A stretch of 38,742 bases of DNA, taken from assembly GCA_003565625.1 (NCBI GenBank), contig PXBD01000089.1:1-38742 (forward strand). The letters are read 5' to 3'. The translations under genes were made by a program, and so were the position numbers. Within the stretch, counting starts at the first letter, position 1. Every line of letters begins with the position of its first letter. The DNA is from Gammaproteobacteria bacterium (lineage in GTDB: Bacteria; Pseudomonadota; Gammaproteobacteria; Xanthomonadales; Wenzhouxiangellaceae). Shown here one piece after another: positions 16,126-38,742 of the stretch. The notes below the pieces were generated by a model. That model saw only the letters and a list, made by a program, of their open reading frames with translations, was not told the origin of the DNA and made no database searches.

Positions 16126-16247
16126 CGAGGCTCCGGAGTACAATGGATTTCAGGCTGCAAGAATACTCCACTGCGACCGGCGCGCACCGTTTCGCGCGCC
16201 CGCCGGCGTGGCACAATGAGAACTTGTTCCGTTGCGGATTGCAAACG

Positions 16248-17171
16248 ATGGTCATCAGCCACGACCGCCTGGCTCACTGGGCCGTCGTCTATGCGACCGC
16301 CTGGTTGCCTCGGCGACCACGCGTGGCGGCACGCTTCCGAATGATGGCCCGGCAGCGGCGACACATGTTGCGGCGCGGCCAGGTGGTCATGATCCGGCAC
16401 CCCAAGACCGGCAGCACCTGGCTGCGTACACTGCTGACCCAGCTCTACCATCACCGCGACGGCATTTCGCCGAAACGCGTGTTTGCTGCCGACGAACTCG
16501 CCCGCCAGAAAAAGGGCTTGCCGCGCTGGGTGATATCCAACGGGTATTACAGCCTGGAAAGGCTGATTCTCGATGCGTATCGTAACGACGATCCTCTGGT
16601 ATCGGGCAAGAAAACCATTCTGCTCGCCCGCCATCCCGGCGACATCGCCGTGTCCTGGCATCGTCAGTACCAGAAGCGGACCAAGCGCTTCAAGCGCGAG
16701 CTGATCGAGGCGGATGTCTGCCGCAATCTGGATATCGATCTCCGGCAGCTGGATCGCTGGGACTTCATTCGCCGCGACGAACTGGGCCTGCCGGCCATTC
16801 TGCGCTATTACAACGACTGGGCCGAAGTACTGGACGGGCGCCAGGATTCGCTGATCGTGCGCTACGAAGACCTGCGCAACGACACCGAGACAACCCTGCG
16901 CCGCATCAGCGCGTTGCTGGGCGAGGAGTTCGATGACGCGCACTACCGCAAGGCCATCGAGTTCGGGTCCGTCGACAACATGCGCGAACTGGAGCGGTCG
17001 GGTTACTTCCAGAATGCCTCGCTGCGCCTGCGCGACGCCAACGACCCGGACGCGCTCAAGGTCCGGCGGGCACGGGTCGGTGGTTTTCGCGCCGACCTCA
17101 CTGGCGAGCAAGCCGACTGGGTCGAACAGCAGGTGCGCGAACACAGTCACCCGGCCCTGGGCTATCGCTGA
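16248..17171 (+). CDS. Sulfotransferase domain-containing protein
   Basis: A 307-residue protein with the 5'-phosphosulfate loop R-H-P-K-T-G-S-T-W-L-R-T-L-L near residue 50. The 3'-phosphate region is L-L-A-R-H-P-G-D-I-A-V-S-W, and an R-Y-E-D-L-R-N-D segment follows. The domain matches sulfotransferase family 1 (PF00685) more closely than the protein at 10960. The acceptor is unknown. The frame is open from ATG 16143, where GGAG of a CTCCGGAG palindrome (16132-16139) would serve as Shine-Dalgarno. I place the start at 16248 because the first 35 codons look unlike the family. The S9 peptidase gene follows after 100 bases. Confidence 0.8.
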   Translation: MVISHDRLAHWAVVYATAWLPRRPRVAARFRMMARQRRHMLRRGQVVMIRHPKTGSTWLRTLLTQLYHHRDGISPKRVFAADELARQKKGLPRWVISNGYYSLERLILDAYRNDDPLVSGKKTILLARHPGDIAVSWHRQYQKRTKRFKRELIEADVCRNLDIDLRQLDRWDFIRRDELGLPAILRYYNDWAEVLDGRQDSLIVRYEDLRNDTETTLRRISALLGEEFDDAHYRKAIEFGSVDNMRELERSGYFQNASLRLRDANDPDALKVRRARVGGFRADLTGEQADWVEQQVREHSHPALGYR

Positions 17172-23537: not shown

Positions 23538-23689
23538 AGCGCACAAAACCAGATTGGTGACGAACCATTCTGCTGCTGCTAAAAAAGCGGGCAACGCCAG
23601 CACGAAGCTGCGCGAATTCTGCTCATCCATGCCTGGTTCCGCCGACGGCTATTTCATCAACGCGCTGACTTCATTACATTTTTATAAAA

Positions 23690-23705
23690 TGGCATGACTT
23701 GTGCA
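23690..23705 (+). promoter_or_regulatory. Sigma-54-like promoter for the TorF-type porin
   Basis: TGGCATGACTTGTGCA keeps GG and GC at the exact sigma-54 spacing and differs from TGGCAC-N5-TTGCA at two positions. It would give a leader of about 45-50 bases before the ATG at 23765. TATAAA (23683-23688) has no suitable -35, so a sigma-70 promoter is less likely. Confidence 0.5.
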
Positions 23706-25628: not shown

Positions 25629-27737
25629 ATGTTCCCGGCACCCCACCCTCGATCACTGCCGTTGGCCTTGCTTGGCGCCTGGCTTGCGCTGCTTGCCTTG
25701 GCTCTGAGCCCGAGCGTCTGGGCAGAGCCCGAAACCGGACCGGTCCAGCGCGATCACATCGAAGTCGAGCTGGTTGCCGAGACGCTTTCGATCCAGCCGG
25801 GCAGCGCAGTGCGGGTCGGGTTGCGAATGCTGCCCGACGAGGGCTGGCACACCTACTGGATCAACCCCGGGGATTCCGGTCTCCCGATTCGCCTGGAATG
25901 GACGGTTCCGGAAGGAACCCGGGTTTCCGGGGTCGCCTGGCCCTACCCCGATGCCCTGCCGATTGGCCACCTGGTCAACTACGGTTACGAGGGCGAGCAT
26001 CTGCTGCCGGTCACCGTCACCGTGCCGGCCGATTGGGAACCCGGTGCGCTGCTGACGCTGGACCTGTACGCCGACTGGCTGGTCTGCGAGATCGAATGCA
26101 TTCCCGGCGATGCCGAATTGCGCCTGGAGCTGCCGGTCGAAACCGAGACACCGGCAACCAATCCCCGGGTCACCCATCTGTTCGACTGGGCCGATACGCG
26201 CCGGCCGGCAGCCGTCGACTGGCCGGCACGGTTCAGCACCGAAGCGCGTCAGCTCAGCGTGCGCATCGACGCGGCTGACGATCTGGAGGGCGACGGCTGG
26301 CAGTTCTTCCCGGCCAGCGAGAACCTCGTTGACCATGCCGCGGAGGCCTTCGTGGTGGTCGACAACGGACTGGTGCAGGTCAGCCAGCGCCTGTCCACCT
26401 TCTTTACGGGTGCACCGGAACAGCTGGACTTCGTCCTCGTCCACGCGACCAGCGGCCGCGCCTACGCGCTGGCGGCTGAACCCGGTGACCTGTCTACTCC
26501 AGCCGGTCTAGACGGCACGCAATCGCGTCCGGGTCTGGCCCTGATCCTGCTGCTGGCGCTTGCCGGCGGCATCTTGCTCAACCTGATGCCGTGCGTTTTT
26601 CCCGTCCTGTCAATCAAGGCCATGAGCCTGGTTGCAGGAGCCGGACAGGATCAACGCGCCCATGGCCTGGCCTATACGATCGGCGTGGTGTTGAGCTTTG
26701 GCTTGCTGGCCGGCGCGTTGCTGGTATTGCGTGCCGGCGGTGAGGCCCTCGGATGGGGCTTCCAGCTGCAGTCACCATGGTTTGTCGGGCTGCTGATCTA
26801 CATCTTTTTCGCGATGGGTCTGGCGCTGTCGGGAGTGTTCGAATTCGGCACCCGGATGATGGGCGTGGGTCAGAACCTGACCGAGGCCGCCGGACTCCGC
26901 GGATCCTTCTTCACCGGGGTGCTGGCCACCGTTGTGGCCAGCCCGTGCACGGCACCATTCATGGGAACTGCACTGGGTGTGGCCGTACTGCTGCCCTGGC
27001 CGCAGGCCATGAGCGTATTCCTTGCGCTCGGCTTTGGTCTGGCCCTGCCCATGCTCGCCCTGAGCTGGTGGCCGGGCCTGGCCCGCCGGCTGCCCAGACC
27101 CGGACCATGGATGGACACCTTCCGGCAGGCCATGGCTTTCCCGCTATACCTGGCCGCGGTGTGGTTGTTGTGGGTGCTGGCCCGGCAAACCGACCCCAAC
27201 GGCCTGGCCCTGGTGCTGACCGGCATGGTGGCGCTGGCGTTTGCCCTGTGGCTGGCAGGCCGGCGCAATCGCAGCGAGACGGCGACCAGCATCCGCCATA
27301 TCACCGTGGCACTGAGCCTGTTGTTCGCCCTGGCCGCGCTCGGCACGGCCGCGCGTTTCGACGCCCAGGCGCCCACGGAAACAACCGCCTCGGCGTGGTG
27401 GGAGGCCTACTCGCCTGACCGCCTGGAACAACTGATCGAAGATCCCGAGCGCGCGGTGCTGGTCAACATGACGGCCGACTGGTGCGTGACCTGCCTGGTC
27501 AACGAACGGGTGGCTCTGAATACCGAGGCAGTGCGACATGTGATGGAAGCCGAAAACATCGCCTATCTGAAGGGCGACTGGACCCGGCGCGACCCGATCA
27601 TTACCGACTACCTGGCGCAGTTCGATCGCAACGGAGTCCCGCTGTATGTGGTCTATCCGCGCAATGGAGACACGCCCCAGGTGCTGCCGCAGGTGTTGAC
27701 CCCCGGACTGGTAGTGCAGGCCCTGCAGGACATCTGA
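25629..27737 (+). CDS. Thiol:disulfide interchange protein, DsbD/ScsB-like
   Basis: A 702-residue protein that moves electrons from cytoplasmic thioredoxin to periplasmic thiol proteins. A signal peptide (1-32) is followed by a periplasmic N-terminal domain with C153-x3-C157 (C-E-I-E-C). The membrane core of eight helices carries Cys322 (L-M-P-C-V-F-P-V) and Cys440 (A-S-P-C-T-A-P). The C-terminal thioredoxin domain has C619-V-T-C622 in A-D-W-C-V-T-C. The long N-terminal domain is of the ScsB type rather than E. coli DsbD. All three redox pairs are present. ATG at 25629 is 14 bases after the DUF3185 stop. Targets may include the redoxin-like protein at 30891. Confidence 0.92.
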   Translation: MFPAPHPRSLPLALLGAWLALLALALSPSVWAEPETGPVQRDHIEVELVAETLSIQPGSAVRVGLRMLPDEGWHTYWINPGDSGLPIRLEWTVPEGTRVSGVAWPYPDALPIGHLVNYGYEGEHLLPVTVTVPADWEPGALLTLDLYADWLVCEIECIPGDAELRLELPVETETPATNPRVTHLFDWADTRRPAAVDWPARFSTEARQLSVRIDAADDLEGDGWQFFPASENLVDHAAEAFVVVDNGLVQVSQRLSTFFTGAPEQLDFVLVHATSGRAYALAAEPGDLSTPAGLDGTQSRPGLALILLLALAGGILLNLMPCVFPVLSIKAMSLVAGAGQDQRAHGLAYTIGVVLSFGLLAGALLVLRAGGEALGWGFQLQSPWFVGLLIYIFFAMGLALSGVFEFGTRMMGVGQNLTEAAGLRGSFFTGVLATVVASPCTAPFMGTALGVAVLLPWPQAMSVFLALGFGLALPMLALSWWPGLARRLPRPGPWMDTFRQAMAFPLYLAAVWLLWVLARQTDPNGLALVLTGMVALAFALWLAGRRNRSETATSIRHITVALSLLFALAALGTAARFDAQAPTETTASAWWEAYSPDRLEQLIEDPERAVLVNMTADWCVTCLVNERVALNTEAVRHVMEAENIAYLKGDWTRRDPIITDYLAQFDRNGVPLYVVYPRNGDTPQVLPQVLTPGLVVQALQDI

Positions 27738-27775
27738 AACCTTTCTGTCATATTTGCCTGTTAGCGTGAGCCGTC

Positions 27776-29329
27776 ATGCCCATCCGGCTCCTGTCTCCGA
27801 CCCGCCTTTTGTTCCTGCTCTTGCTGCTGGCCGCTCCCGCGCTCGCGCAGGAATCCGAGCCGCTGCCGGAGGTGCCGGATTTTCCGTCTCAACCCATCCG
27901 CCTGATTGTCTACACCAGCCCCGGGGGGTTGATCGACGTCACCGCGCGACGCTTCGCCCAGCTCGCTCAGGAGCATGCCGGCCACCCGTTTGCGGTCATC
28001 AACCGCCCCGGCGGGGGCGGCATTGTGGCCTTCGAGGAGGTATTGCGGGAACCGGCTGACGGCCATCGCTTCCTGGCCGTGACCCGATCCAACATTTCCA
28101 AAATGGTGGCCACCGGGCGCGAAGACCTGATCGATCGGGTCTTGTGGCACTCCTACATCATGGACAATCCGCACGTGCTGATCACCAACCGGGAATCGGG
28201 CCTGGACAGCTGGGACGCGCTGAAGGCATACCGGCGCGCCGAGGATCACGATCATCTCTGGCTGGGCGTCGACATCGGCGGGGTCAAACATGTCTCCGGC
28301 GTGCGGGTTGCCGAGGCAACCGGTATCGACATGCGCTGGATTCCCTATGGCAGCGGCGGCGAGGCCCGCGCCGCTCTTCTGGGTGAGCTCGGCACGGTGT
28401 ATTTCGGCAACCCGCGCGACGCCCTGGCCTCGCCCAGCCTCGACATCGTTGCCGTTGCCGCCGATCAGCGCCTGGCGGAATTTCCCGATGCCCCGACCTT
28501 TGCCGAACTCGGGTATCCGGGACTGGAAGATGAGTTGATCTGGCGCGGGTTTGCGTTTCGCAAGGAGGTCGATGAATCCATCCAGAACTGGTACGACGCG
28601 CTCATCAGGAACGTCCTGGCCGACCCGCGCTGGCGCAACTCCTGGCAGGGCGAGGCGGTCAACCTGCGCTACCGTGGTCGAACCGACTTCGAACGCATGG
28701 TCGCGCGCGACCGGGAAGAGTTCCGAACCTACCTGGAACGACTGCAACTGCTGCCGGACGCGCGGCCCAAGCCCGGACGTCTGGCGCAGCTGGCCCAGCC
28801 TCCGCTTGTGGCCTGGCTGGGCGCGGGCATGATCGGTGTGCTCGGAATGGCCCTGCTGTTTTGGCGTCAGCGCCGGCCAGATGTGCCGGTCGGTGAGGCG
28901 GCTCTGCTGCTCACCTTGCTGGGCACCGTCGCGCTTGCCTGGGCGATGAGCGTGCAGCTGCCGCCGGCCAACCCGGTCGATCCGGTCGGGGCGCGCGGTA
29001 TTCCGCAACTGTGGCTGGTGGGCCTGCTGGCCCTGGTCGGATGGCAACTGGCGGGACTTTTTCGGCCCCGGCCACCGAATGCCGCTCAGGCCGAGGTCAT
29101 TCCGGCGCGCCTGCCTCTGACCGTGGGCGCCTACGGCCTCGGCCTGGCCCTGCTGCCGGGACTCGGTTACTTCCTGGTCACCCTGGTCTATCTGCCGGCC
29201 ATGACCTGGTTCCTGGGCTATCGCCGGGTAGGCGTCATCGCCGGCCTGACCATCGGCTGGCTGCTGATGTCGGAACTGGTCTTCCAGCGCCTGCTGCACG
29301 TGGATCTGCCGCGCGGAACCTGGTGGTGA
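27776..29329 (+). CDS. Fused tripartite tricarboxylate transporter receptor and small membrane subunit (TctC-TctB)
   Basis: One 517-residue protein combines two subunits that are normally separate. Residues 1-24 are a signal peptide. Residues 36-330 are a TctC/Bug-type solute receptor: P-S-Q-P-I-R-L-I-V-Y near the start, then N-R-P-G-G-G-G, and later A-A-D-Q-R-L-A-E-F-P-D-A-P-T-F-A-E-L-G. From residue 342 to the end lie four or five hydrophobic helices in TctB style. The frame is continuous, with no stop or frameshift at the junction. The fusion would tether the binding protein to the membrane subunit. The substrate may be a carboxylate, but is not predictable. TctA starts one base after the stop, so the two are translationally linked. 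The Shine-Dalgarno is weak. Confidence 0.88.
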   Translation: MPIRLLSPTRLLFLLLLLAAPALAQESEPLPEVPDFPSQPIRLIVYTSPGGLIDVTARRFAQLAQEHAGHPFAVINRPGGGGIVAFEEVLREPADGHRFLAVTRSNISKMVATGREDLIDRVLWHSYIMDNPHVLITNRESGLDSWDALKAYRRAEDHDHLWLGVDIGGVKHVSGVRVAEATGIDMRWIPYGSGGEARAALLGELGTVYFGNPRDALASPSLDIVAVAADQRLAEFPDAPTFAELGYPGLEDELIWRGFAFRKEVDESIQNWYDALIRNVLADPRWRNSWQGEAVNLRYRGRTDFERMVARDREEFRTYLERLQLLPDARPKPGRLAQLAQPPLVAWLGAGMIGVLGMALLFWRQRRPDVPVGEAALLLTLLGTVALAWAMSVQLPPANPVDPVGARGIPQLWLVGLLALVGWQLAGLFRPRPPNAAQAEVIPARLPLTVGAYGLGLALLPGLGYFLVTLVYLPAMTWFLGYRRVGVIAGLTIGWLLMSELVFQRLLHVDLPRGTWW

Positions 29330-29330
29330 C

Positions 29331-30803
29331 ATGATCGAATCGCTGCTCGGAGGCTTCACCACGGTGCTGGCCATCGCACCGCTGCTGACGATTGTGCTGG
29401 GTATCGTGCTCGGCATCCTGGTCGGAGCCATGCCGGGTCTGTCACCATCCATGGGCGTGGCCCTGATGGTGCCATTCACCTATGGCATGTCGCCGACGCT
29501 GGGCCTGATCCTGTTGATCGGCATCTACATCGGCTCCAGCTACGGCGGCTCGATCACCGGCATCATGGTCAACGCACCCGGCACGCCTTCCGCCGTGGTC
29601 ACCGCAATCGACGGCTACGCCCTGACCCGCAAGGGCCGGGCCACCGAAGCCCTGGGCACTTCCATCGTGGCCTCGGCCTTCGGCGGCATGTTCGGCACCC
29701 TGATCCTGATCGGTTTTTCGGTGCCGCTGGCCGCGGCCGCGGTGCGCTTTCATCCCTCCGAATACTTCGCCTTCGCTCTGTTCGGCATGACCACCATTGC
29801 CGCCCTGGCCGGCGATCACTGGGGCAAGGCCTTCATCGCCATGCTGCTGGGGCTGTTCATCGCCACCATCGGCACCGATCCGATCAGCGGTGCCGAGCGT
29901 TTTACCCTGGGCATTCCGACGCTCTCAGACGGCTTTTTACTCATTCCCGCGCTGATCGGGATGTTTGCCCTGAGTGAGGTATTTCGCGGTATCGAGAAAG
30001 GTGAGTTCCGGATCACCCACCTGCCCGGCATCAGCGACCGCTGGCCCGGCCTGGGCCACTACTGGCGATTGAAGTGGGTCACCCTGCGCTCCAGCGCCAT
30101 CGGCACCGTGGTTGGGGTTTTTCCTGGTGCGGGCGCGACCATCGGCTCGTTCATCAGCTACGGCCTGGCCCGGCGCCTGAGCCGCGAGCCGGAGCGCTTC
30201 GGCCAGGGCAGTGCCGAAGGCGTCACGGCAGCCGAAGCGGCCGATTCCGGCTCGGTCGGCGGCGCCATGGTGCCGTTGCTGGCGCTGGGCATTCCCGGCA
30301 GTGCAACCACCGCGGTACTGATCGGGGCCATGATGATCCACGGGCTGACTCCGGGCCCGCAATTGTTTCTGGGCAGCCCGGACATGATCTACGCGATTTT
30401 CGGCGCCATGCTGATTGCCCAGTTTGTGCTGCTGCTGGCCGGCATCGCCGGCGGCCGCCTGTGGGTGATGGTGGCCAACATCCCCAAGGAATTGCTCTAC
30501 GTGCTGATCACCCTGATGGCGCTGATCGGCTCATTTTCCGTGCGCAACGCCCTGTTCGACGTGTTTGCCTGCTTCGGCTTCGGTCTGCTGGGCTGGTGGC
30601 TGCGCCGCCACGACTTCCCGCTGGCGCCGGTGATCCTGGGGCTGGTGCTGGGCCTGATTGCCGAGACCAACTTTCGTCGCGCCATCATGATGGACGGCTG
30701 GCCGGTGTTCTTCGAACGCCCGTTGACTCTGGCCCTTCTCGTCCTGGCGGCACTCTCGATCGCCATACCCCTGGCTCGGCGACTGCGCGACACCCGGCGC
30801 TGA
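29331..30803 (+). CDS. Tripartite tricarboxylate transporter large permease, TctA family
   Basis: A 490-residue membrane protein with about 11-12 helices. The family core is G-A-M-P-G-L-S-P-S-M-G near residue 34 and I-G-S-S-Y-G-G-S-I-T-G-I-M-V-N-A-P-G-T-P near residue 65. A second repeat carries V-F-P-G-A-G-A-T-I-G and A-L-G-I-P-G-S-A-T-T-A. This subunit carries out cation-coupled uptake together with TctB and the TctC receptor, here supplied by the fused upstream gene. The ATG is one base from the TctCB stop. No two-component sensor (TctDE) is nearby. Confidence 0.92.
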   Translation: MIESLLGGFTTVLAIAPLLTIVLGIVLGILVGAMPGLSPSMGVALMVPFTYGMSPTLGLILLIGIYIGSSYGGSITGIMVNAPGTPSAVVTAIDGYALTRKGRATEALGTSIVASAFGGMFGTLILIGFSVPLAAAAVRFHPSEYFAFALFGMTTIAALAGDHWGKAFIAMLLGLFIATIGTDPISGAERFTLGIPTLSDGFLLIPALIGMFALSEVFRGIEKGEFRITHLPGISDRWPGLGHYWRLKWVTLRSSAIGTVVGVFPGAGATIGSFISYGLARRLSREPERFGQGSAEGVTAAEAADSGSVGGAMVPLLALGIPGSATTAVLIGAMMIHGLTPGPQLFLGSPDMIYAIFGAMLIAQFVLLLAGIAGGRLWVMVANIPKELLYVLITLMALIGSFSVRNALFDVFACFGFGLLGWWLRRHDFPLAPVILGLVLGLIAETNFRRAIMMDGWPVFFERPLTLALLVLAALSIAIPLARRLRDTRR

Positions 30804-30890: not shown

Positions 30891-31499
30891 ATGAAGATCT
30901 GGCACAAGCTGTTGACCGTAGTAGTCGCACTCGGCCTGAGCGCCACGCTGTCGGCGGCCCCCGAAATCGGCCAGCCGGCACCGGGTTTCAGCGTCATCGA
31001 TACCCAGGGCCAGGAGCACGCGCTGTCGGATTTCGCCGGCCAGACGGTGGTCCTGGAGTGGACCAATCACGATTGCCCGTTCGTGGTCAAGCACTACCAG
31101 CCCGGCAACATGCAAATGCAGCAGCGCACCGCCCGGGAGGAACACGATGCGGTCTGGCTGACCGTCATTTCCTCGCGCCCCGGAGAACAGGGCCATGTCA
31201 GCCCGGAACAGGCCGATGAACTGACCGCCGGCCGCGGTGCCTTCCCGACCGCGGTCCTGCTGGACGAATCCGGTGACATGGGCCGGGCCTATGATGCGCG
31301 GGTGACCCCGCACATGTACATCATCGACGCCGACGGCATCCTGCGCTACATGGGCGGCATCGACTCCAACCCCAGCCGGCATTCGGCGGACATCCCGGAC
31401 GCGACCCAGTACGTCATGGTGGCCCTCGAACAGATGGCGGCCGGGGAGGAAATCACCGACGCCGTCACCCGCCCCTACGGCTGCACGGTCAAGTACTGA
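30891..31499 (+). CDS. Redoxin/thioredoxin-like exported protein
   Basis: A 202-residue protein with signal peptide (cleavage near S-A-A-P). The thioredoxin-like fold is recognised by I-G-Q-P-A-P-G-F-S-V-I-D, V-V-L-E-W-T-N-H-D-C-P-F-V, and V-T-P-H-M-Y-I-I-D with a cis-Pro. Instead of C-x-x-C there is one cysteine at the active position (Cys62 in D-C-P-F-V-V-K-H-Y), and a second near the C-terminus (Cys198 in Y-G-C-T-V-K-Y). This fits a redoxin/AhpC-TSA-related subgroup, perhaps a peroxidase or thiol carrier, reduced by the DsbD-like protein encoded upstream (inference). AAGGAG precedes the ATG. A TGCGC-AGAAG-GCGCA inverted repeat lies at 30838-30852. Confidence 0.85.
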   Translation: MKIWHKLLTVVVALGLSATLSAAPEIGQPAPGFSVIDTQGQEHALSDFAGQTVVLEWTNHDCPFVVKHYQPGNMQMQQRTAREEHDAVWLTVISSRPGEQGHVSPEQADELTAGRGAFPTAVLLDESGDMGRAYDARVTPHMYIIDADGILRYMGGIDSNPSRHSADIPDATQYVMVALEQMAAGEEITDAVTRPYGCTVKY

Positions 31500-31511
31500 G
31501 TCAGCCTCGGC

Positions 31512-32657
31512 ATGACCGACCGGCGCCGGGACGCGGCCGAAACGCAGGGCATCCACGCCGGTGCCGGGGAGTTCCCGCCACCGTTCGGGCTCAACCCCCC
31601 CGTCGTGACCAGCTCGGCGTTCGACTATCGGGCCGACCAGGTCCGCTACCCGCGCTATCACAACACGCTCAATCACGATCTGGTCGCCGAGCGCCTTGCC
31701 GCCCTGGAGGGCGGCGAGGCCGCGCTGGTCACGGCCAGCGGCATGGGCGCGCTGAGCGCCATCTTCCTGGGCCTGATGCAGCCCGGCTCGCACGCCATTC
31801 TGCTCGACGGCCTCTACGGCGGCACCACGGATCTGGTCGAGGGACTGCTCAAACCGCTGGGGCTGTGCTTTTCGATCTGGAACGGCGAGCCCGATCAGCT
31901 CGAAAGCCTGATCACCGAACACACCCGACTGGTTCACGTGGAGTCCCCGACCAACCCGCTGCTAGGTATCGTCGACCTGGCCCGGGTCGCCAGGATTGCC
32001 CGCCAGCACGGGCTGATCAGCGTGATCGACAACACCTTTGCCTCGCCGGTGCTGCAGCGCCCGATCGAGTTCGGCTTCGACCTGGTCATGCATTCGGCAA
32101 CCAAGTACCTGGGCGGGCATTCCGATTTGCTGAGCGGGGCGGTGGTCGGCTCGAACGTCCTGATCGACCGGATTCGGCCCACCGCCATCCGCCTGGGTGC
32201 CAGCATGAACGGTCAGGATCTCGCCCTGCTCGAGCGCTCGCTCAAGACGCTTGCCGTGCGCGTTCGCCAGCAGTCGGCCAATGCCGGCGAACTGGCCGGA
32301 CGACTGAACCGGCATGTCGCAATCACCCGGGTGTTCTACCCCGGGCTGGCCGACCATCCGGGTCACGAGCAGGCCCGGGCGCAGATGGACGGGTTCGGTG
32401 GCATGCTCAGCTTTCAGCTGGCGCCCGGGTTCGAACCGGAGGTCTTTCTTGACCGTCTGGGTCTGATCCAGCCGGCGGTGAGTCTGGGCGGGGTGGAGTC
32501 GACGATCTGTCAGCCGTCACGGACCAGCCATTCCAGGATCACGCCCTGCGAGCGCGCACGCCTGGGAATCGATGACCGGTTGATGCGCCTGTCGGTCGGC
32601 CTGGAGGCGATCGATGATCTGTGGGATGATCTTCGGTTGGCGCTGTGCCCCTCCTGA
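31512..32657 (+). CDS. Trans-sulfuration PLP enzyme (cystathionine beta-lyase/gamma-synthase family)
   Basis: A 381-residue Cys/Met-metabolism PLP enzyme. The Schiff-base lysine is Lys198 in H-S-A-T-K-Y-L-G-G-H. D-N-T-F-A-S-P lies at about 173-179, and S-G-M-G-A binds PLP phosphate near 76-80. R-Y-P-R-Y-H near residue 46 replaces the usual Y-x-R of the neighbouring subunit. Family members include cystathionine beta-lyase, gamma-synthase, gamma-lyase and methionine gamma-lyase; the sequence alone does not settle which. It starts 12 bases after the redoxin gene and ends 13 bases before the first Na/Pi cotransporter gene, so it may be co-transcribed with both. Confidence 0.88.
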   Translation: MTDRRRDAAETQGIHAGAGEFPPPFGLNPPVVTSSAFDYRADQVRYPRYHNTLNHDLVAERLAALEGGEAALVTASGMGALSAIFLGLMQPGSHAILLDGLYGGTTDLVEGLLKPLGLCFSIWNGEPDQLESLITEHTRLVHVESPTNPLLGIVDLARVARIARQHGLISVIDNTFASPVLQRPIEFGFDLVMHSATKYLGGHSDLLSGAVVGSNVLIDRIRPTAIRLGASMNGQDLALLERSLKTLAVRVRQQSANAGELAGRLNRHVAITRVFYPGLADHPGHEQARAQMDGFGGMLSFQLAPGFEPEVFLDRLGLIQPAVSLGGVESTICQPSRTSHSRITPCERARLGIDDRLMRLSVGLEAIDDLWDDLRLALCPS

Positions 32658-32670
32658 CTCGACGCTGACC

Positions 32671-34518
32671 GTGGCTCGTCGCCTGCCGCTGATCGTTCTG
32701 CTGCTCCTGCTGGGCTGGATGTTCTGGTCCAGCCCAACCCTGGCCGGTATTGCTTCCGGCGTGGCGGTCTTTCTGTTCGGCATGATGGCGCTGGAGCAGG
32801 GTCTGCGCGGCCTGACCGGCGGCACCCTGGAAGCGCTGCTGCGACGTTCCACCGACCGGCTGTGGAAGGGGCTGGCTTTCGGTGCCGGAACCACGGCCCT
32901 GACCCAGTCGAGCACGCTGGTCTCGCTCCTGACCATCTCGTTTCTGAGTTCCGGGCTGCTGGGTCTGAAGCAGGGCCTGGGCGTGATCTTCGGCGCCAAC
33001 CTCGGCACCACCACCGGCGCCTGGCTGCTGGCCGGCCCGGCCCTGCACTTCAACATCGGCGCCGGCGCCCTGCCGTTGCTGACCTTTGGCGTGGTCTTCA
33101 TTCTCACCCGCAACCGGATTCTGCGCGCCCTGGGCTGGGTCCTGGTCGGAATCGGGTTCCTGTTTCTCGGCATCCAGTGGATGAAAGAGGGTTTTGAAAC
33201 CTTCCAGCAGGCCTTCGACCTGACCGAGTTCGCCATGACGGGCCTGGGCGGGTTGCTGCTCTACACCCTGGTCGGAATCGTCGCGACCGTGATCATGCAG
33301 TCCAGCCACGCCACGCTGATCATCGTGATCACCGCCCTGGCGGCCGGGCAGATCAGTTACGACAACGCGCTGGCGGTCTCCATCGGGGCCAACATCGGCA
33401 CCGCGGTGTCGACCGGCCTGGCGGCGATCACCACCAACATCGCCGGCCGGCGCCTGGCCGCGGCTCACCTGATCTTCAATCTCGTCACCGGGCTCATTGC
33501 GCTGGTGTTCATCCAGGGCTTTCTTTGCGCGGTGGAATTGGGCAGCCGCTGGCTGGGAATCGCTGAAGACAATTACACCATCCGTCTGGCCCTGTTCCAT
33601 ACCTTGTTCAACCTGACCGGCATCGCGGTCATGGTGCCCATGATCGGCAGACTTGTTCATCTGCTGGAAACGAAAATGAAACCTGCCGAGGTCAAACTGG
33701 ACCGGCCAAAATATATCAGCGACCAGATGCTGGAAACGCCGGGGGCTGCCCTGGAGGCGCTGCGCCGCGAGTTGTTGCGGTTATTCCGGCGCGCTTTCAG
33801 CCTGATTGCCCGCATACTGAATTACGAGGCCGGTGAATTGCGGCAGGCGAATCGACACGACACGGTTGCCCAGCCGCCGGCACGGGTGCACGTGGTGGAT
33901 GTCGACAAGGTCTATCTCGGCACGATCAAACCGCTGCACGGGTTGATCGTTGCCTTCATGGCCCGTCTGCCGGTCGAAGGCGTTCGCGCCCGCCAGATGA
34001 CGCTGTTGCGGGTAGCAAGCCAGGATCTGATCGAAGCCGTCAAGGACGCCAAGCATCTGCAGAAAAACATGGTTCGTTATCTGCAGTCCGAACAGGAAGC
34101 GATGCGCAACGAATACCTGGATATGCGTCGCAACCTGGGTCATCTGCTGGCCCGACTCGACGAATTGGCCGCCGTTGAAGAACCGTACGAAGACATGGAG
34201 CTGGAGTTGAGCGAACTGGGAACCCGAATCGAGGAAAACGATATCGTCAACAACGGCCGCCTTGATGAACTCATTCGCAACAACCGCATCACCGCCGAAC
34301 AGGCCACCTCGCTAATGAATGACAATGCCTACAGCTACAGAATTTCGCGCAACCTGCTGGGTATGGCCCGCGCCACCTTCCAGCCGTTCGCACAGCTGGA
34401 CGCCGAATTGCGCGATGCCATCGAACTCAACCCCGCCGAGGTGCGGACTTTGCTGGCCGAAATCGGAAACCGCCAGGTCGAGGAACACCAGGTCGAGGAA
34501 CAAAGGAAAGAACCATGA
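32671..34518 (+). CDS. Na/Pi cotransporter family protein with C-terminal PhoU-like domain (copy 1)
   Basis: A 615-residue inner-membrane protein. The transport domain (about 1-330) has two inverted halves, each with a Q-S-S motif (79-81 and 210-212) followed by G-A-N-x-G-T (108-113 and 239-244), as in PF02690 phosphate carriers (SLC34-like, NptA, YjbB). From about 350 it becomes a helical cytoplasmic PhoU-like domain. The start is taken as GTG 32671; in-frame ATG at 32614 would overlap the preceding gene by 44 bases. The stop overlaps the next small gene as ATGA. It is paralogous to the protein at 34825. Phosphate uptake or export is likely; direction cannot be told from sequence. Confidence 0.88.
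   Translation: MARRLPLIVLLLLLGWMFWSSPTLAGIASGVAVFLFGMMALEQGLRGLTGGTLEALLRRSTDRLWKGLAFGAGTTALTQSSTLVSLLTISFLSSGLLGLKQGLGVIFGANLGTTTGAWLLAGPALHFNIGAGALPLLTFGVVFILTRNRILRALGWVLVGIGFLFLGIQWMKEGFETFQQAFDLTEFAMTGLGGLLLYTLVGIVATVIMQSSHATLIIVITALAAGQISYDNALAVSIGANIGTAVSTGLAAITTNIAGRRLAAAHLIFNLVTGLIALVFIQGFLCAVELGSRWLGIAEDNYTIRLALFHTLFNLTGIAVMVPMIGRLVHLLETKMKPAEVKLDRPKYISDQMLETPGAALEALRRELLRLFRRAFSLIARILNYEAGELRQANRHDTVAQPPARVHVVDVDKVYLGTIKPLHGLIVAFMARLPVEGVRARQMTLLRVASQDLIEAVKDAKHLQKNMVRYLQSEQEAMRNEYLDMRRNLGHLLARLDELAAVEEPYEDMELELSELGTRIEENDIVNNGRLDELIRNNRITAEQATSLMNDNAYSYRISRNLLGMARATFQPFAQLDAELRDAIELNPAEVRTLLAEIGNRQVEEHQVEEQRKEP
34231..34334 (+). repeat. Near-identical segment shared by the two Na/Pi-PhoU genes
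   Basis: Bases 34231-34334 align without gaps to 36391-36494, a constant offset of 2160. Several exact runs occur, such as ATCGTCAACAACGGCCGCCT and ATGAATGACAATGCCTACAG. Both copies encode the conserved I-E-E-N-D-I-V-N-N-G-R-L-D-E-L and S-L-M-N-D-N-A-Y-S-Y-R stretches of the PhoU-like domain. The repeat reflects gene duplication and could support recombination between the copies. Confidence 0.85.
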
Positions 34519-34769
34519 GCAAATCGATACTCGACAAGATGCGCAAATTCCTGTCCAAGGACGCCCGTGAACAGGCGGAAAAAAAGGACAAGCTGCGCAA
34601 GATTCTGGCCAAGATGCGCAAAAAACAAAAAAAACTCGAAGAAGAGCGGGAAGAAACGAACGATCCGGCGCTGCAGTCCGAGCTGGACAAGAAAATCCGG
34701 ATTCTCAAAGAGCAGCGCCGCAAGGGTGTGGCTCATCTGGAAAGCCTGCACCACGGCACCAACGAATAA
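34515..34769 (+). CDS. Small, highly charged coiled-coil protein between Na/Pi cotransporters
   Basis: An 84-residue cytoplasmic protein with no membrane segment or signal peptide. More than half its residues are Lys, Arg, Glu, Asp or Gln, and heptads run through residues 20-75 (K-I-L-A-K-M-R-K, then E-L-D-K-K-I-R-I-L-K). This indicates a long helix or antiparallel coiled coil. I recognise no family. The start ATG overlaps the copy-1 stop as ATGA, and the copy-2 cotransporter follows 55 bases later. Translational coupling on the left and the paralog on the right suggest a regulatory or linking partner of the PhoU-like domains, though this is inference from position only. Confidence 0.8.
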   Translation: MSKSILDKMRKFLSKDAREQAEKKDKLRKILAKMRKKQKKLEEEREETNDPALQSELDKKIRILKEQRRKGVAHLESLHHGTNE

Positions 34770-34824
34770 TCCGCAAGCGTCTGTGGCATGATTGGGGGTA
34801 ATTCCCCCGCTTGGGAGCACCCGC

Positions 34825-36663
34825 TTGCGGTTCAAGCACCTGCCGTTGACACTGGCCCTGCTGTTGCTGATCTGGGCATTTCAGACCAGCCCGACGCTGG
34901 TCGAAATTGCCGCCGGTGTGGCTGTGTTCCTGTTCGGCATGATGGCCCTCGAACAGGGTTTCAAGGCCTTTACCGGCGGCCTGCTGGAAGGGCTGTTGAA
35001 ACGCTCCACCGACCGCCTCTGGAAAAGCCTGAGCTTTGGCGCGATCGCAACCACCATCACCCAGTCGAGCTCGCTGGTTTCGGTCATCACCATCAGCTTT
35101 CTGAGCGCCGGTCTGCTCGGTCTGGGCCAGGGCATCGGGGTCATTTTCGGGGCCAACCTGGGCACGACATCCGGGGCCTGGCTGATGGCCGGCTTCGGCA
35201 TTCGGGTCAACATCTCGGCCTATGCAATGCCGCTGCTCGTTTTTGGCGTTGTCTTCATTTTCAACCGCTCCAAAACCCTCAACGGCATGGGTTACGTGCT
35301 GGCCGGCATCGGCTTTCTGTTTCTCGGCATTCACTTCATGAAGGAAGGCTTCGAGGCCTACCAGCAAAGCATTGACCTGAGCCAATACGCGGTCGACGGC
35401 GTTGCCGGCCTGCTGCTCTACACACTCCTGGGAATGGTTGCCACGGTGGTCATGCAATCCAGCCACGCCACCCTGATTCTGACCATCACCGCCCTGTCGG
35501 TGGGCCATATCACCTACGACAATGCGCTGGCCCTGTCGATTGGAGCCAATGTCGGTACCACCATTACCGCACTGATCGGTGCGGTCGGTGCCAATATCGC
35601 AGGGCGTCGGCTGGCGGCCGCACACCTGATCTTCAATATCGTGACCGGCCTGATCGCCCTGCTCTTCCTGCAGGCGTTTCTGGTGGTGGTCGATATCACC
35701 AGCCAGTGGCTTGGCATTGCGGCGGATAACCATACCCTGAAGCTGGCCCTGTTTCACACCCTGTTCAACCTGACCGGCATCATTGTCATGGTGCCCTTCA
35801 TCGGCATCCTGGTGGAGCAGCTCGAAACCCGCATGCGCCCGCGGCCGATCAAGCTTGATGAGCCGAAATTCATGAGCGAAACCATGCTCGAGACTCCGGG
35901 TGCCGCTCTGGAAGCGGCGCGCAGGGAACTGCTGCGCCTGTTCCGCCGGGCCTTCAGCCTGATTGCCAAGGTGCTCAACTACGAAACCGGGGAACTGCGC
36001 GGGGCCATCGACAGGACAGCGCTGGGCTCCGCGCCTGCATCCGTTACGGTTGTTGACGTGGATGAAATGTACCGGCGTCGGATCAAGCCCCTGCATGGTC
36101 TGATCCTGGACTATATGGCCCGCCTCGGCGTCAAGGGACGGCGCGCCCAGCAGCTGGTCTTGCTGCGAGTCGCCAGCCAGGATCTGGTCGAAGCGGTCAA
36201 GGATGCAAAGCATCTGCAAAAAAACATGGTGCGCTACCTGGCATCCGACAATGCCGAGATGCGGGCTGAGTACCTGGACCTCCGCGGCCACCTCGGTTTG
36301 TTGCTGCACCAGCTCGACCAGCTGGCTTCAACCGCGGAAGGCAGCGACGAGGATCTGGCCATGGAGCTGGCCGAACTGAGCGCAAGTATCGAGGAAAACG
36401 ACATCGTCAACAACGGCCGCCTCGATGAGCTGATCCGGAGCCGACGGATCACGCCCGAGGAGGCGACCTCGCTGATGAATGACAATGCCTACAGTTACCG
36501 CATCGCTCACAACTTGCTGGCCATGGCGCGCGCCACCTTCCAGCCTTTCGAGTCCATGGACGCAGAGTTGCGCGAAGCGATTGAGCTCAACCCCAACGAA
36601 GTGCACGAACTGCTGAGCAAGCCCCCACCGGGCAAAGCCGGGGGTGAAAAAACCGCGCGCTAG
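34825..36663 (+). CDS. Na/Pi cotransporter family protein with C-terminal PhoU-like domain (copy 2)
   Basis: A 612-residue paralog of the protein at 32671. It shows the same order: inverted transport halves with Q-S-S (in T-Q-S-S-S and M-Q-S-S-H) and G-A-N-L-G-T/G-A-N-V-G-T, then a PhoU-like domain from about residue 350. The start is a TTG at 34825, seven bases after GGGAG (34813-34817); an earlier TTG at 34792 is in frame but has no ribosome-binding site. GGGGG-TAATT-CCCCC (34794-34808) forms a small hairpin directly upstream of that GGGAG and could modulate ribosome access. Divergence from copy 1 is greatest at the N-terminus and in the linker near residue 380, where subfunction may lie. 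Confidence 0.87.
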   Translation: MRFKHLPLTLALLLLIWAFQTSPTLVEIAAGVAVFLFGMMALEQGFKAFTGGLLEGLLKRSTDRLWKSLSFGAIATTITQSSSLVSVITISFLSAGLLGLGQGIGVIFGANLGTTSGAWLMAGFGIRVNISAYAMPLLVFGVVFIFNRSKTLNGMGYVLAGIGFLFLGIHFMKEGFEAYQQSIDLSQYAVDGVAGLLLYTLLGMVATVVMQSSHATLILTITALSVGHITYDNALALSIGANVGTTITALIGAVGANIAGRRLAAAHLIFNIVTGLIALLFLQAFLVVVDITSQWLGIAADNHTLKLALFHTLFNLTGIIVMVPFIGILVEQLETRMRPRPIKLDEPKFMSETMLETPGAALEAARRELLRLFRRAFSLIAKVLNYETGELRGAIDRTALGSAPASVTVVDVDEMYRRRIKPLHGLILDYMARLGVKGRRAQQLVLLRVASQDLVEAVKDAKHLQKNMVRYLASDNAEMRAEYLDLRGHLGLLLHQLDQLASTAEGSDEDLAMELAELSASIEENDIVNNGRLDELIRSRRITPEEATSLMNDNAYSYRIAHNLLAMARATFQPFESMDAELREAIELNPNEVHELLSKPPPGKAGGEKTAR

Positions 36664-36695
36664 TGGACCAATGGACCACCAGGCCGGGTATCCGG

Positions 36696-36713
36696 CCGTC
36701 ATGAATCTGTCAT
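36696..36713 (+). promoter_or_regulatory. Pho box (PhoB site) upstream of the DASS permease gene
   Basis: CCGTCAT-GAAT-CTGTCAT: two 7-base direct repeats with a 4-base AT-rich spacer, as in the CTGTCAT-N4-CTGTCAT consensus; only one base of the fourteen differs. It lies 48 bases before the ATG at 36762, as expected for a PhoB-activated promoter. A good -10 is not apparent downstream. Confidence 0.75.
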
Positions 36714-36761
36714 ACTCACCGATTGATCGATGACTGATCGGGGCTTTACAGGAGAGAGCGC

Positions 36762-38387
36762 ATGAACCGCACGGCCGACAGCGCCACCAACGGGAACGGG
36801 GGCGCAGACCCGCTGGATATGAGCCAATACCGGATCGACCGCTTGCCCAAGCGCGAGCGCTCGACCACCGAGGTCTGGATGGCCCGCGCGGGCATCCCGC
36901 TGGCGATTTCCGCCTTCATCCTGTTCGGTTTTGCCTGGACTCCGGAATTCCTGATCGCGCTCAATGCCGAAGCACTGCCCGATCGGGCCCTGGCCGTGCT
37001 CGAAGAGGTCGGCCGGGCCGAAATGACCCGGCGCAACAGCGCCATGCTCGGTGTCTTCCTGGTCGGGATGATCCTGTGGACGACCCAGTCCATCCCCAAC
37101 TACCTGACCTCACTGATCGTGATCATCTCGCTGGTGATGACCGGGGTGCTGACCGAGCGCGAGGCCTACGCCCAGCTCGGCCACCCGATCATGTGGCTGA
37201 ACATCATGTCGTTCATCCTCGCCTCGATGCTGGTCAAGACCGGCCTGGCCAAGCGCTTCACCCTGTGGTTCATCCTCAAGTTCGGCACCAGCGCCTCGAA
37301 GGTTTTCTTAAGCTTCATCTTCATCAACGTGGTGCTGTCGGCCTTCATCTCGGCGACCACGGCCAAGGCCGCGATCATGCTGCCGATCTTCATGGTCATT
37401 GCCGCCATCTACGGGGCACGTCCCGGTCCAGGCCAGACCAATTTCGGGCGCAATATCGTCCTGCAGCAACTGCTCAACATCAACCTGGGCGCCGGCGCTT
37501 TCGTTACCGGCTCTGGCGCCAATCTGCTGGCCGCGGCCCTGATCACCGGGGCGATCTCAGGCGGGGTGTTTTTTGCCGACTGGATGATCGCCATGCTGCC
37601 GACCATGCTCGGCCTGATGCTGATCGGCTACATCCTCGGCATGAAGATGGTCTTTCCGCTCGAAGAGAAGGAGAAACTGCCCCAGATCTCCGGCGGCATG
37701 GAACGGCTGCGCGAGGAATACAACGAACTCGGACCGGTGCGCTGGGACGAGATCCGCTCGGCGGTGATCTTTCTGACCATCCTGGCCTTCTGGGCCACGG
37801 ACCGCCTGCACGGCATCAGCGCCACGGCAGTTGCGTTCATCGGCGGCATCGTGGCGCTGATGCCGCGAATCGGCATTGTCGACTGGAACGACGTCGACAT
37901 CCCCTGGCACCTGATGCTGTTCTCGGCCGGTGCCTACTGCCTGGGGGCTGGCTTTGCCCAGACCGGGCTGCCCAACCTCGGGGTGGACGCGTTTTTCACC
38001 GGGGTCGGGCTCGACCAGGACACGCCGTTCTGGGTGCTGTATTTGATCCTGACCGGGGTCATGGCCTACTCGGCCCTGCTATCGCAGTCGAAAACCATGC
38101 GGACCATGATTTTCGTGCCCATCGCCATCGGCACGGCCGAGCATTTCGGACACTCGGTGATCAGCCTGGCCCTGCCGGTCGCCTTCCTCATCGAGCACGT
38201 CTACGTGCTGCCGTTCAACTCCAAACCGGCCGCCCTGCTGTACGAAACCGACATGTACACCCTGACCAACGCGATCAAGTACGGGATGATCATGCTCACC
38301 CTGGGCTGGGTGGCCAATATCGTCATGGGCGAGACCTGGTTCCGGTTCCTGGGCATCACCCCCAACGGTGTCTTCGGACTGTTCTGA
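36762..38387 (+). CDS. DASS/SLC13-family sodium-coupled anion transporter
   Basis: A 541-residue membrane permease with about 12 hydrophobic segments after a polar N-terminus of about 45 residues. The two substrate motifs of divalent anion:sodium symporters appear as F-I-S-A-T-T-A-K-A-A-I-M-L-P and T-G-S-G-A-N-L-L-A-A. The second half has S-Q-S-K-T-M-R and L-P-F-N-S-K-P where other members carry SNT-like loops. Known substrates in the family are dicarboxylates, sulfate and, in eukaryotic and some bacterial members, phosphate. The Pho box in front and the Na/Pi-PhoU genes beside it favour phosphate or a phosphorylated anion. CAGGAGAG precedes the ATG. It may be transcribed separately from the Na/Pi genes, since a 98-base gap holds the Pho box. 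Confidence 0.88.
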   Translation: MNRTADSATNGNGGADPLDMSQYRIDRLPKRERSTTEVWMARAGIPLAISAFILFGFAWTPEFLIALNAEALPDRALAVLEEVGRAEMTRRNSAMLGVFLVGMILWTTQSIPNYLTSLIVIISLVMTGVLTEREAYAQLGHPIMWLNIMSFILASMLVKTGLAKRFTLWFILKFGTSASKVFLSFIFINVVLSAFISATTAKAAIMLPIFMVIAAIYGARPGPGQTNFGRNIVLQQLLNINLGAGAFVTGSGANLLAAALITGAISGGVFFADWMIAMLPTMLGLMLIGYILGMKMVFPLEEKEKLPQISGGMERLREEYNELGPVRWDEIRSAVIFLTILAFWATDRLHGISATAVAFIGGIVALMPRIGIVDWNDVDIPWHLMLFSAGAYCLGAGFAQTGLPNLGVDAFFTGVGLDQDTPFWVLYLILTGVMAYSALLSQSKTMRTMIFVPIAIGTAEHFGHSVISLALPVAFLIEHVYVLPFNSKPAALLYETDMYTLTNAIKYGMIMLTLGWVANIVMGETWFRFLGITPNGVFGLF

Positions 38388-38389
38388 AA

Positions 38390-38407
38390 AAGTCATTGTT
38401 TCGTCAT
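38390..38407 (+). promoter_or_regulatory. Pho box upstream of the porin gene
   Basis: AAGTCAT-TGTT-TCGTCAT: GTCAT repeats at exactly 11-base offset with an AT-rich spacer, matching the PhoB pattern in ten of fourteen repeat positions. TAGGCT (38418-38423) stands 10 bases downstream as a possible -10. It starts 3 bases after the DASS stop, so porin expression would be separately inducible. The leader to the ATG would be about 135 bases. Confidence 0.6.
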
Positions 38408-38451
38408 CGTTTTTGACTAGGCTCAAATTTTGGTTAAATGAGCAGGCGCAT

Positions 38452-38474
38452 ACTGGGGTCACCTTGGCCCCAGT
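38452..38474 (+). other. Inverted repeat in the porin leader
   Basis: ACTGGGG (38452-38458), 9-base loop, CCCCAGT (38468-38474): a perfect 7-bp stem. If transcription starts near 38430, it lies in the 5' untranslated leader. It has no T-tract and could be a structural or stabilising element. Confidence 0.35.
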
Positions 38475-38566
38475 CTCAGGATCGCGCGGTTGACTGCCCG
38501 CCTTGCCCCTGGGGTCGATCTGACGACTAACCTCTCCAACAAAACCTCCAAATAAGGAGAACAACG

Positions 38567-38742
38567 ATGATGAAAAAACTAAACAAACTGGCGATTGCCG
38601 TGGCGATCGGCTTGAGCAGCACCATAGCCCTGGCATCCGAAACCGACCGCCTGATGGAACTGCTGGTCGACAAGGGCATCCTGACCACCGAGGAAGCCCA
38701 GGCCATCCGCGAGGAAGCACGGGCCGACAAGGAAGCCGAACG
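38567..38742 (+). CDS. Porin, phosphate-selective (OprO/OprP-like) family, N-terminal fragment
   Basis: Only 58 codons plus two bases are inside the window. The peptide has a lysine-rich start and hydrophobic core ending A-L-A-S (cleavage near residue 24). It continues L-M-E-L-L-V-D-K-G-I-L-T-T-E-E-A-Q-A-I-R, then an acidic helix. This pattern, a short coiled-coil with K-G-x-L-T-x-E-E-A, is the usual N-terminus of phosphate-selective porin O/P-type outer-membrane proteins. AAGGAG (38554-38559) precedes ATG 38567; ATG 38570 is an alternative. The Pho box 160 bases upstream fits induction by phosphate limitation. The barrel is outside the window. Confidence 0.75.
   Translation, partial: MMKKLNKLAIAVAIGLSSTIALASETDRLMELLVDKGILTTEEAQAIREEARADKEAE

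Follow-up and report, generated by a model that had tools for sequence, protein, structure and literature searches.

The DNA analysed here, hereafter the window, is a whole contig of 38,742 nucleotides (PXBD01000089.1, contig C8) from a Wenzhouxiangella-type draft genome (2.8 Mb, 95 contigs, 89.5% complete), and its right part carries a series of predicted anion transporter genes centred on a permease of the DASS/SLC13 type. The order on the forward strand is a TctC-TctB fusion, TctA, a redoxin, a Cys/Met-type pyridoxal-phosphate (PLP) enzyme, a first Na/Pi cotransporter-like protein, a coiled-coil gene, a second Na/Pi protein, the DASS permease, and the opening 58 codons of a porin gene. The last five had been named in an original prediction made from the letters alone, and all were recovered in their places (PF02690 for the Na/Pi proteins, PF00939 for the permease, and PF07396 in the porin of a sister genome). 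The nearest named relatives of the permease come from Gammaproteobacteria and Wenzhouxiangella draft genomes, and isolate names such as CSSed and DLM among the relatives' genomes are taken by us as pointing to soda lakes.

The DASS permease (36762..38387, + strand) matches PF00939 over 445 residues (161.2 bits, cut-off 27) and falls just below the cut-off of the NCBIfam model TIGR00785 (dass; 197.5 vs. 198.6 bits). No SPX domain was found on it, as only PF00939 and PF03600 match at E 0.001. Fourteen distinct solved DASS/SLC13 sequences in the PDB match the protein, the best being carboxylate carriers, e.g. chloroplast DiT1 and NaCT, with SLC13A1 also among the matches. The SNT motif is missing at both hairpin positions in all 36 aligned subfamily sequences, which invariably carry SATTAK at the first position and a KTMR stretch at the second, the latter preceded by QS in most cases (SQSKTMR in the window's protein). 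Three basic residues (K202, K444, R447) are invariant in the same alignment, and an N-terminal DPLDMxxYRxxxLPxR is more conserved than the stretch that follows it. Because the SNT motifs are replaced, we file the protein as a distinct subfamily and not as a standard dicarboxylate DASS; judged by its alignment, this subfamily is strongly conserved and distinct within the DASS fold. It shares PF00939 with VcINDY, NaCT, NaS1, chloroplast DiT1, and yeast Pho90, but differs from these systems by the absence of the SNT motifs, the conserved N-terminal tail, a score just below the TIGR00785 cut-off, and its two partners, c1 and CYTH, described below. Within the genus the subfamily is sparse: five of 25 genomes have full-length matches of at least 84%, and G004 adds a fragment.

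Upstream of the permease lie Na/Pi protein 1 (32614..34518, + strand, alternative GTG start at 32671), which has a helical C-terminal half, and its tandem copy, Na/Pi protein 2 (34792..36663, + strand). They match PF02690 (Na_Pi_cotrans, cut-off 29.1 bits) at 153.9 and 150.5 bits, respectively, and are 69% identical across 583 residues, with QSS repeats at 98 and 229 in protein 1. Between them, an open reading frame (ORF) for a charged coiled-coil protein of 84 aa (34515..34769, + strand) overlaps the first Na/Pi gene by ATGA; it has no match to any family, and homologues with 42-69% identity occupy the same position in L015-L019, L140, and L163. Both cotransporters had been described as Na/Pi-PhoU paralogs, which holds for the Na/Pi part, while the PhoU part gave no Pfam PhoU match even at E 10. 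For a structure model of this part (predicted local distance difference test, pLDDT, 85.6, built from just 7 sequences), the top seven structural hits were all PhoU proteins, at weak E values of 0.08-0.35 and template modelling (TM) scores of 0.48-0.58 by query length. The two proteins thus share PF02690, two QSS repeats, and a helical tail, with PhoU proteins as its weakly scoring nearest structures, with the NptA/NaPi-II cotransporters, but are arranged as tandem copies joined by a coiled-coil gene and have a tail below sequence detection as PhoU. The tandem was found only in the window, G004 (L140), and G012 (L163).

The phosphate-selective porin O/P gene (38567..38742, + strand) is ended by the contig end, and its 58 codons alone have no family match. 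PF07396 does not match anywhere in the window's draft genome either, as expected if the rest of the gene falls in the contig gap. The full porin of the sister genome L014 (L014:2308-3729) matches PF07396 at 166.9 bits and the PDB entries of OprP and OprO over residues 80-473 of 473, being about equally close to each. With the Pseudomonas OprP/OprO porins the module thus shares this match and a predicted phosphate-regulated promoter region, but identity is low (roughly a quarter, by estimate). In the window's own genome, c1, CYTH, and DUF47 occur on another contig (C31) together with the beginning of PiT. In L014, DASS and porin are followed on the opposite strand by PiT, DUF47, CYTH, and c1; therefore C8 and C31 are probably adjacent in the window's genome, and the four genes would most likely lie just past the contig break. 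CYTH and c1 also come after the porin in G004 (L139), there without PiT and DUF47, and the order in L015-L018 is Na/Pi, coiled coil, c1, DASS, CYTH (on the other strand), and porin.

Linkage of the DASS subfamily with c1 and CYTH

Gene order was compared around the best 80 of 465 matches to the DASS protein in the genome collection (60-97% identity), which span Bacteroidota, Balneolota, Ignavibacteria, Chlorobiota, Acidobacteria, Riflebacteria, KSB1, and Gammaproteobacteria. Neighbouring ORFs of at least 80 aa were clustered by single linkage and named from scanned representatives. The combination of DASS permease, Na/Pi tandem, and coiled-coil gene, singled out in the original prediction, did not emerge as a conserved set, since a Na/Pi cluster member occurs in 9/80 loci, exclusively in Gammaproteobacteria, and the coiled coil in 5/80, exclusively in Wenzhouxiangella. 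The partners across phyla are instead c1 (76 loci) and CYTH (70), then Porin_O_P (59), DUF47 (43), and PiT (42). Many contigs end early, leaving 57 of the 80 loci with 1.5 kb on both sides; within 1.5 kb of DASS, c1 is found in 71/80 and CYTH in 68/80. Neither was found at the loci of 25 distant DASS proteins in related genomes (flanks up to 1.5 kb, a few shorter). c1 itself is present in 6/16 genus genomes (6/25 genomes of the whole search) and, in a search started from c1, in 7/398 Pseudomonadota genomes including the window's own. One of the six others, G277, is a complete one-contig genome that holds DASS, c1, CYTH, porin, DUF47, and PiT together. Among the DASS loci, that of the named strain Alcanivorax limicola JB21 (L028) carries c1, DASS, and porin. 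Across phyla, the conserved unit joins a DASS subfamily with two proteins of triphosphate-tunnel type.

Neither Pfam nor NCBIfam has a model that matches the protein c1 at E 0.01, and its alignment with the module's CYTH by hhalign reached a probability of 0.2%. A sequence-level kinship of the two, which was considered, was therefore dropped, and the claim of a triphosphate tunnel in c1 comes from its structure model (pLDDT 94.4, 8 long strands). Sorted by description, the 38 PDB structures that this model matches at E 0.001 or better comprise 30 triphosphate-tunnel or RNA-triphosphatase entries (including thiamine triphosphatase and AtTTM3) and 8 Mediator subunits. At the fold level, the model points to c1 likely having the triphosphate tunnel fold. 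Invariant residues include R14, E16, R18, K63, R65, K72, K141, R143, E154, and E171; the first strand seemingly offers one acidic residue in place of the E4 and E6 of CYTH, and several of the usual acidic residues of the metal site seem to be altered or gone. Therefore, c1 may have weak enzymatic activity, or it may act as a binding protein or as a sensor.

CYTH is better anchored by sequence: PF01928 was found in both copies scanned, and it matches Nitrosomonas NE1496, which we take to be NeuTTM, over near full length at E 1.3e-19. It thereby resembles the NeuTTM/CYTH triphosphatases, including retention of the Tyr/Lys dyad (Y29 and K52 do not vary among 19 sequences), but is here paired with c1 beside a permease. 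In PMC3440374, the Tyr/Lys pair is suggested as the catalytic dyad and the cellular role of CYTH tripolyphosphatases is called an open question. The PiT protein matches a solved phosphate transporter (6l85), and the adjoining PF01384 and PF01865 genes are shared with PitA-DUF47 (PhoU_div) pairs, but the module embeds them with DASS, CYTH, c1, and porin.

A tree of c1 places the window's clade and Balneolota in one group (100/100) and L015-L019 within a gammaproteobacterial branch (100/99); nodes nesting the window's clade in the Balneolota group are weaker (94/87 and 95/23), in a midpoint-rooted tree with unsettled bootstrap and some long rows. A c1-CYTH set of Balneolota type thus seems to have taken the place of the native one in the window's clade, and such a replacement argues that DASS needs c1 and CYTH as partners.

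Several other genes accompany these loci. A phosphonate-binding-type protein, a histidine kinase, and a sigma-54 response regulator (clusters c9, c10, and c11, one representative each scanned) lie divergent from c1-CYTH-DASS in about 10 loci, L062, L052, L078, and L087 included, and are a possible phosphate-type sensor. In many Bacteroidota loci, the porin is followed by lamin-tail-domain and phytase-like/SdiA-regulated proteins (c6 in 40 loci, c7 in 23; e.g. L036, L037, and L087), and a protein of about 488 aa without Pfam match (c8, in 18/80 loci; L056:11612-13078) adjoins DASS repeatedly in Bacteroidota. At three Pseudomonadota loci (L169:7486-10564, L170:4445-6513, and L171:6377-8420), c1 and CYTH adjoin what we presume, from its sequence, to be an ApaH-like phosphatase gene.

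Pho-box-like sites and predicted phosphate regulation

Candidate Pho boxes were scored with a weight matrix based on the E. coli consensus, over 77,450 candidate sites in the window and against 20 resampled sequences that follow its dinucleotide frequencies. The site directly upstream of the DASS gene (CCGTCAT GAAT CTGTCAT; 36696..36713, + strand) ranks first with 20.8, the highest best site among the resampled sequences reaching 18.2. Within the closest clade, all three genomes with a DASS hit (the window's, L014, and L140) keep it, at scores of 20.8, 20.1, and 23.2; CGTCAT and TCTGTCATA are invariant among them at a mean column identity of 60%, and in both sister genomes the box is intact although the flanks have diverged. 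Its architecture is similar to that of the pst promoters of the genus. As a positive control, in the near-complete genus genomes G002 and G010 the matrix placed its best site within 16 kb of pst locus immediately ahead of the presumed pstS (23.7 and 19.1); nine other pst contigs, which may or may not include the region upstream of pstS, gave best scores of 8.4-13.4, several of them spanning 3.6-6.3 kb, and pstS and phoR were named at these loci by ORF order and length. A pattern search of the whole genome with two mismatches gave no clear excess (139 sites vs. 130 for the reversed control), which is why matrix and conservation were adopted; at one mismatch or fewer, 10 genome sites remained, the DASS site among them. 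PhoB is present in the window's genome (contig C27; TIGR02154, 333.8 bits, cut-off 296.2) and its gene has a Pho-box-like site upstream (14.8).

A second element, upstream of the porin gene, is an array of Pho-box-like repeats phased at 11 bp (38379..38418, + strand; scores 14.3 and 11.4). Its best 18-mer (38390-38407) ranks fourth of 77,450 with 14.3, and this site alone is not beyond chance because resampled sequences attain its score (mean best site 14.0). The core TTTTGACTA is common to five of six aligned loci, L018 being without it. Porin upstream regions score 8.9-21.2 in 11 of 12 gammaproteobacterial loci (5.8 in L027), where 8.9 is attained by 22% of AT-matched 350-bp segments, a null that includes real sites, with related loci and 10 of the 12 re-scored. 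Of the two Pho-box-like elements proposed originally, the one at the DASS gene was thus borne out, ranking first and being conserved in the clade, and the one at the porin is weaker. Promoter sequences make Pho control of the DASS gene in the window's clade well supported, and that of the porin gene is supported less strongly. The third-ranking site (23673, score 17.0) belongs to an AT-rich stretch at 23668-23690 and was dismissed as unlike a Pho box.

A candidate phosphate-oxyanion uptake island and its alternatives

These observations are best explained, with a probability that we put at roughly 0.57, by a PhoB-controlled island for phosphate-oxyanion uptake with a distinct DASS subfamily and two triphosphate-tunnel partners. 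The window would hold most of this phosphate acquisition island, which might be induced by phosphate limitation. The OprP/OprO-type porin would pass phosphate oxyanions through the outer membrane, and at the inner membrane a DASS-fold elevator transporter, probably Na+-coupled, would carry orthophosphate or a related phosphate oxyanion, with the tandem Na/Pi cotransporters and their PhoU-like tail acting beside it. The permease would work with two soluble triphosphate-tunnel proteins, a NeuTTM-like CYTH tripolyphosphatase and c1, which may cleave a phosphate chain, or sense it, at the cytosolic face. An anion route from outer to inner membrane, as envisaged in the original prediction, is supported. 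A similar combination exists in yeast, where VTC is a TTM polymerase and Pho91 a DASS phosphate carrier; there, too, a triphosphate-tunnel fold is combined with a DASS phosphate carrier, but no SPX domain was found on the bacterial DASS protein and the tunnel proteins are separate, small, and soluble. The originally proposed substrate, phosphate, is plausible for the DASS permease, but PiT relatives include sulfate permeases and phosphate chains are a further candidate; most likely, the substrate is phosphate or condensed phosphate.

Several findings weigh against this island. Three c1-CYTH loci have no DASS gene in the 12-16 kb read and the ApaH-like gene instead, the 15 kb read at two further c1 loci shows no CYTH and no DASS, and G014 has c1 and CYTH but no subfamily DASS was found in this genome (84% complete). 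Because such loci exist without DASS, c1-CYTH is not exclusive to it and is probably an older pair that DASS joined. The best structural match of c1 (2gfg) is loose, with E 2.5e-6, a TM score of about 0.5, and a root-mean-square deviation of 7.6, and the PiT protein fits the model of the sulfate permease CysP (75.3 bits) better than that of PitA (17.5), with both scores far below cut-off. A strong box stands directly upstream of just three of 17 gammaproteobacterial DASS genes scored; the other 14 all have c1 directly upstream of DASS, and in L015-L019 the DASS gene comes after c1 without a strong Pho box ahead. A precedent in favour of the island is yeast Pho90, which PMC13394699 presents as a phosphate-specific DASS member, with SLC13A1 as a sulfate transporter. 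Searches with the DASS protein as single sequence or profile retrieved no chain named Pho90 at E 10, and a sequence kinship with Pho90 was dropped. Finally, the sister genome G012 carries Pst as well, and therefore the island is not a replacement for Pst, an idea rejected with PstB above cut-off in 20/25 relatives, G012 included. In the window's draft genome the best PstB match reaches 162 bits (cut-off 343), and the phoB contig stops inside the gene after the presumed phoR.

Among the alternatives, it is possible but unlikely that DASS imports tripolyphosphate or short polyphosphate, which CYTH and c1 would cleave inside while PiT balances the released phosphate. The near-constant pairing with two triphosphate-tunnel-type proteins, one of them NeuTTM-like and keeping the dyad, would fit such an import, as would the invariant basic K202, K444, and R447 in the re-written motif regions and a porin about equally close to OprP and to OprO, the latter of which prefers polyphosphate. 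However, tripolyphosphate is a larger anion than any that, to our knowledge, a DASS protein carries, CYTH could equally clean up endogenous tripolyphosphate, and c1, seemingly without several usual acidic residues, may not be an enzyme. The broader idea of a horizontally spread, starvation-controlled system for the use of inorganic tripolyphosphate or short polyphosphate, comprising an OprO-type porin, a DASS-fold importer of condensed phosphate, and CYTH and the new family c1 to cleave or sense it, is equally tentative.

Transport of sulfate or another oxyanion is a clearly more doubtful option. Both the DASS and the PiT homologues include sulfate transporters, as reflected in the Pfam name of PF00939, the closer score of PiT to CysP than to PitA in NCBIfam, and the presence of SLC13A1 among the PDB matches of DASS (a sulfate carrier according to PMC13394699). 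Pho boxes, PhoU-type genes, and the OprP/O porin, however, indicate phosphate, and family scans of the repeated neighbours, covering part of them, yielded no sulfate-assimilation genes. That DASS is an ordinary dicarboxylate carrier merely co-regulated with phosphate genes, e.g. for carbon supply or exchange with phosphate, is improbable: the fold and the best PDB matches (DiT1, NaCT) are those of carboxylate carriers and a Pho-boxed tricarboxylate-type transporter lies within the same window, but the SNT motif is missing at both positions in 36/36 sequences and the partners across phyla are of the phosphate type, in line with the original suggestion of a substrate other than dicarboxylate. 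Least credible is that the 36696 site is an extended -10 promoter element (TGTCATAcT), which TGTCATACT or TGTCATAAT fits and for which no better -10 was seen by eye at the usual distance, but the GTCAT repeat 11 bp upstream is just as conserved and the pst promoters of the genus also have a -10-like hexamer abutting the last repeat.

If the island takes up phosphate oxyanions as proposed, it would represent a third phosphate-type anion route in bacteria, non-ABC and non-PiT, on the DASS fold and in at least six phyla, where this fold has so far been associated with carboxylates, sulfate, and, in yeast Pho90, phosphate. It would also give a function to the conserved family c1 and a physiological setting to CYTH tripolyphosphatases. 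The top-ranked open-access papers retrieved include none that describes this gene set, which is weak evidence of absence.

A tripartite tricarboxylate transporter and other genes of the window

Outside the core of the island, a 738-aa ORF at 14128-16344 has no Pfam match at E 0.001. The redoxin and Cys/Met PLP genes (30891-32657) were considered as island members and dropped, as their arrangement resembles ordinary local synteny; presumably the same PLP gene (cluster c22) is found upstream also in L015, L016, L018, and L019.

Further upstream, a TctC-TctB fusion (27776..29329, + strand) matches PF03401 (54.5 bits) and comes slightly below the cut-off of PF07331 (25.2 vs. 29.1 bits), and is followed by the TctA membrane subunit (29331..30803, + strand; PF01970, 484.2 bits) of the tripartite tricarboxylate transporter. 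The fusion gene occurs in 9/25 genus genomes, with one more distant match in the 41 genomes searched overall. It is preceded by a Pho-box-like site (CTGAAAC CTTT CTGTCAT; 27734..27751, + strand) that ranks second of 77,450 with a matrix score of 17.1. Such a repeat pair is the top upstream site in all eight scorable loci of the genus (the window and seven others, 10.0-17.1, a score of 10 being attained by 11% of AT-matched 232-bp segments), the ninth (L180) being too short to score. TctC-TctB and TctA are thus, from these upstream regions, likely a second Pho-controlled transporter, so that a Pho-controlled tripartite tricarboxylate transporter would be predicted alongside the phosphate island. 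In Bacteroidota, a TctC-TctB homologue and TctA adjoin DASS itself at three loci (L038, L045, and L051), and in L038, the only locus where Pfam confirms the fusion, both domains exceed their cut-offs.

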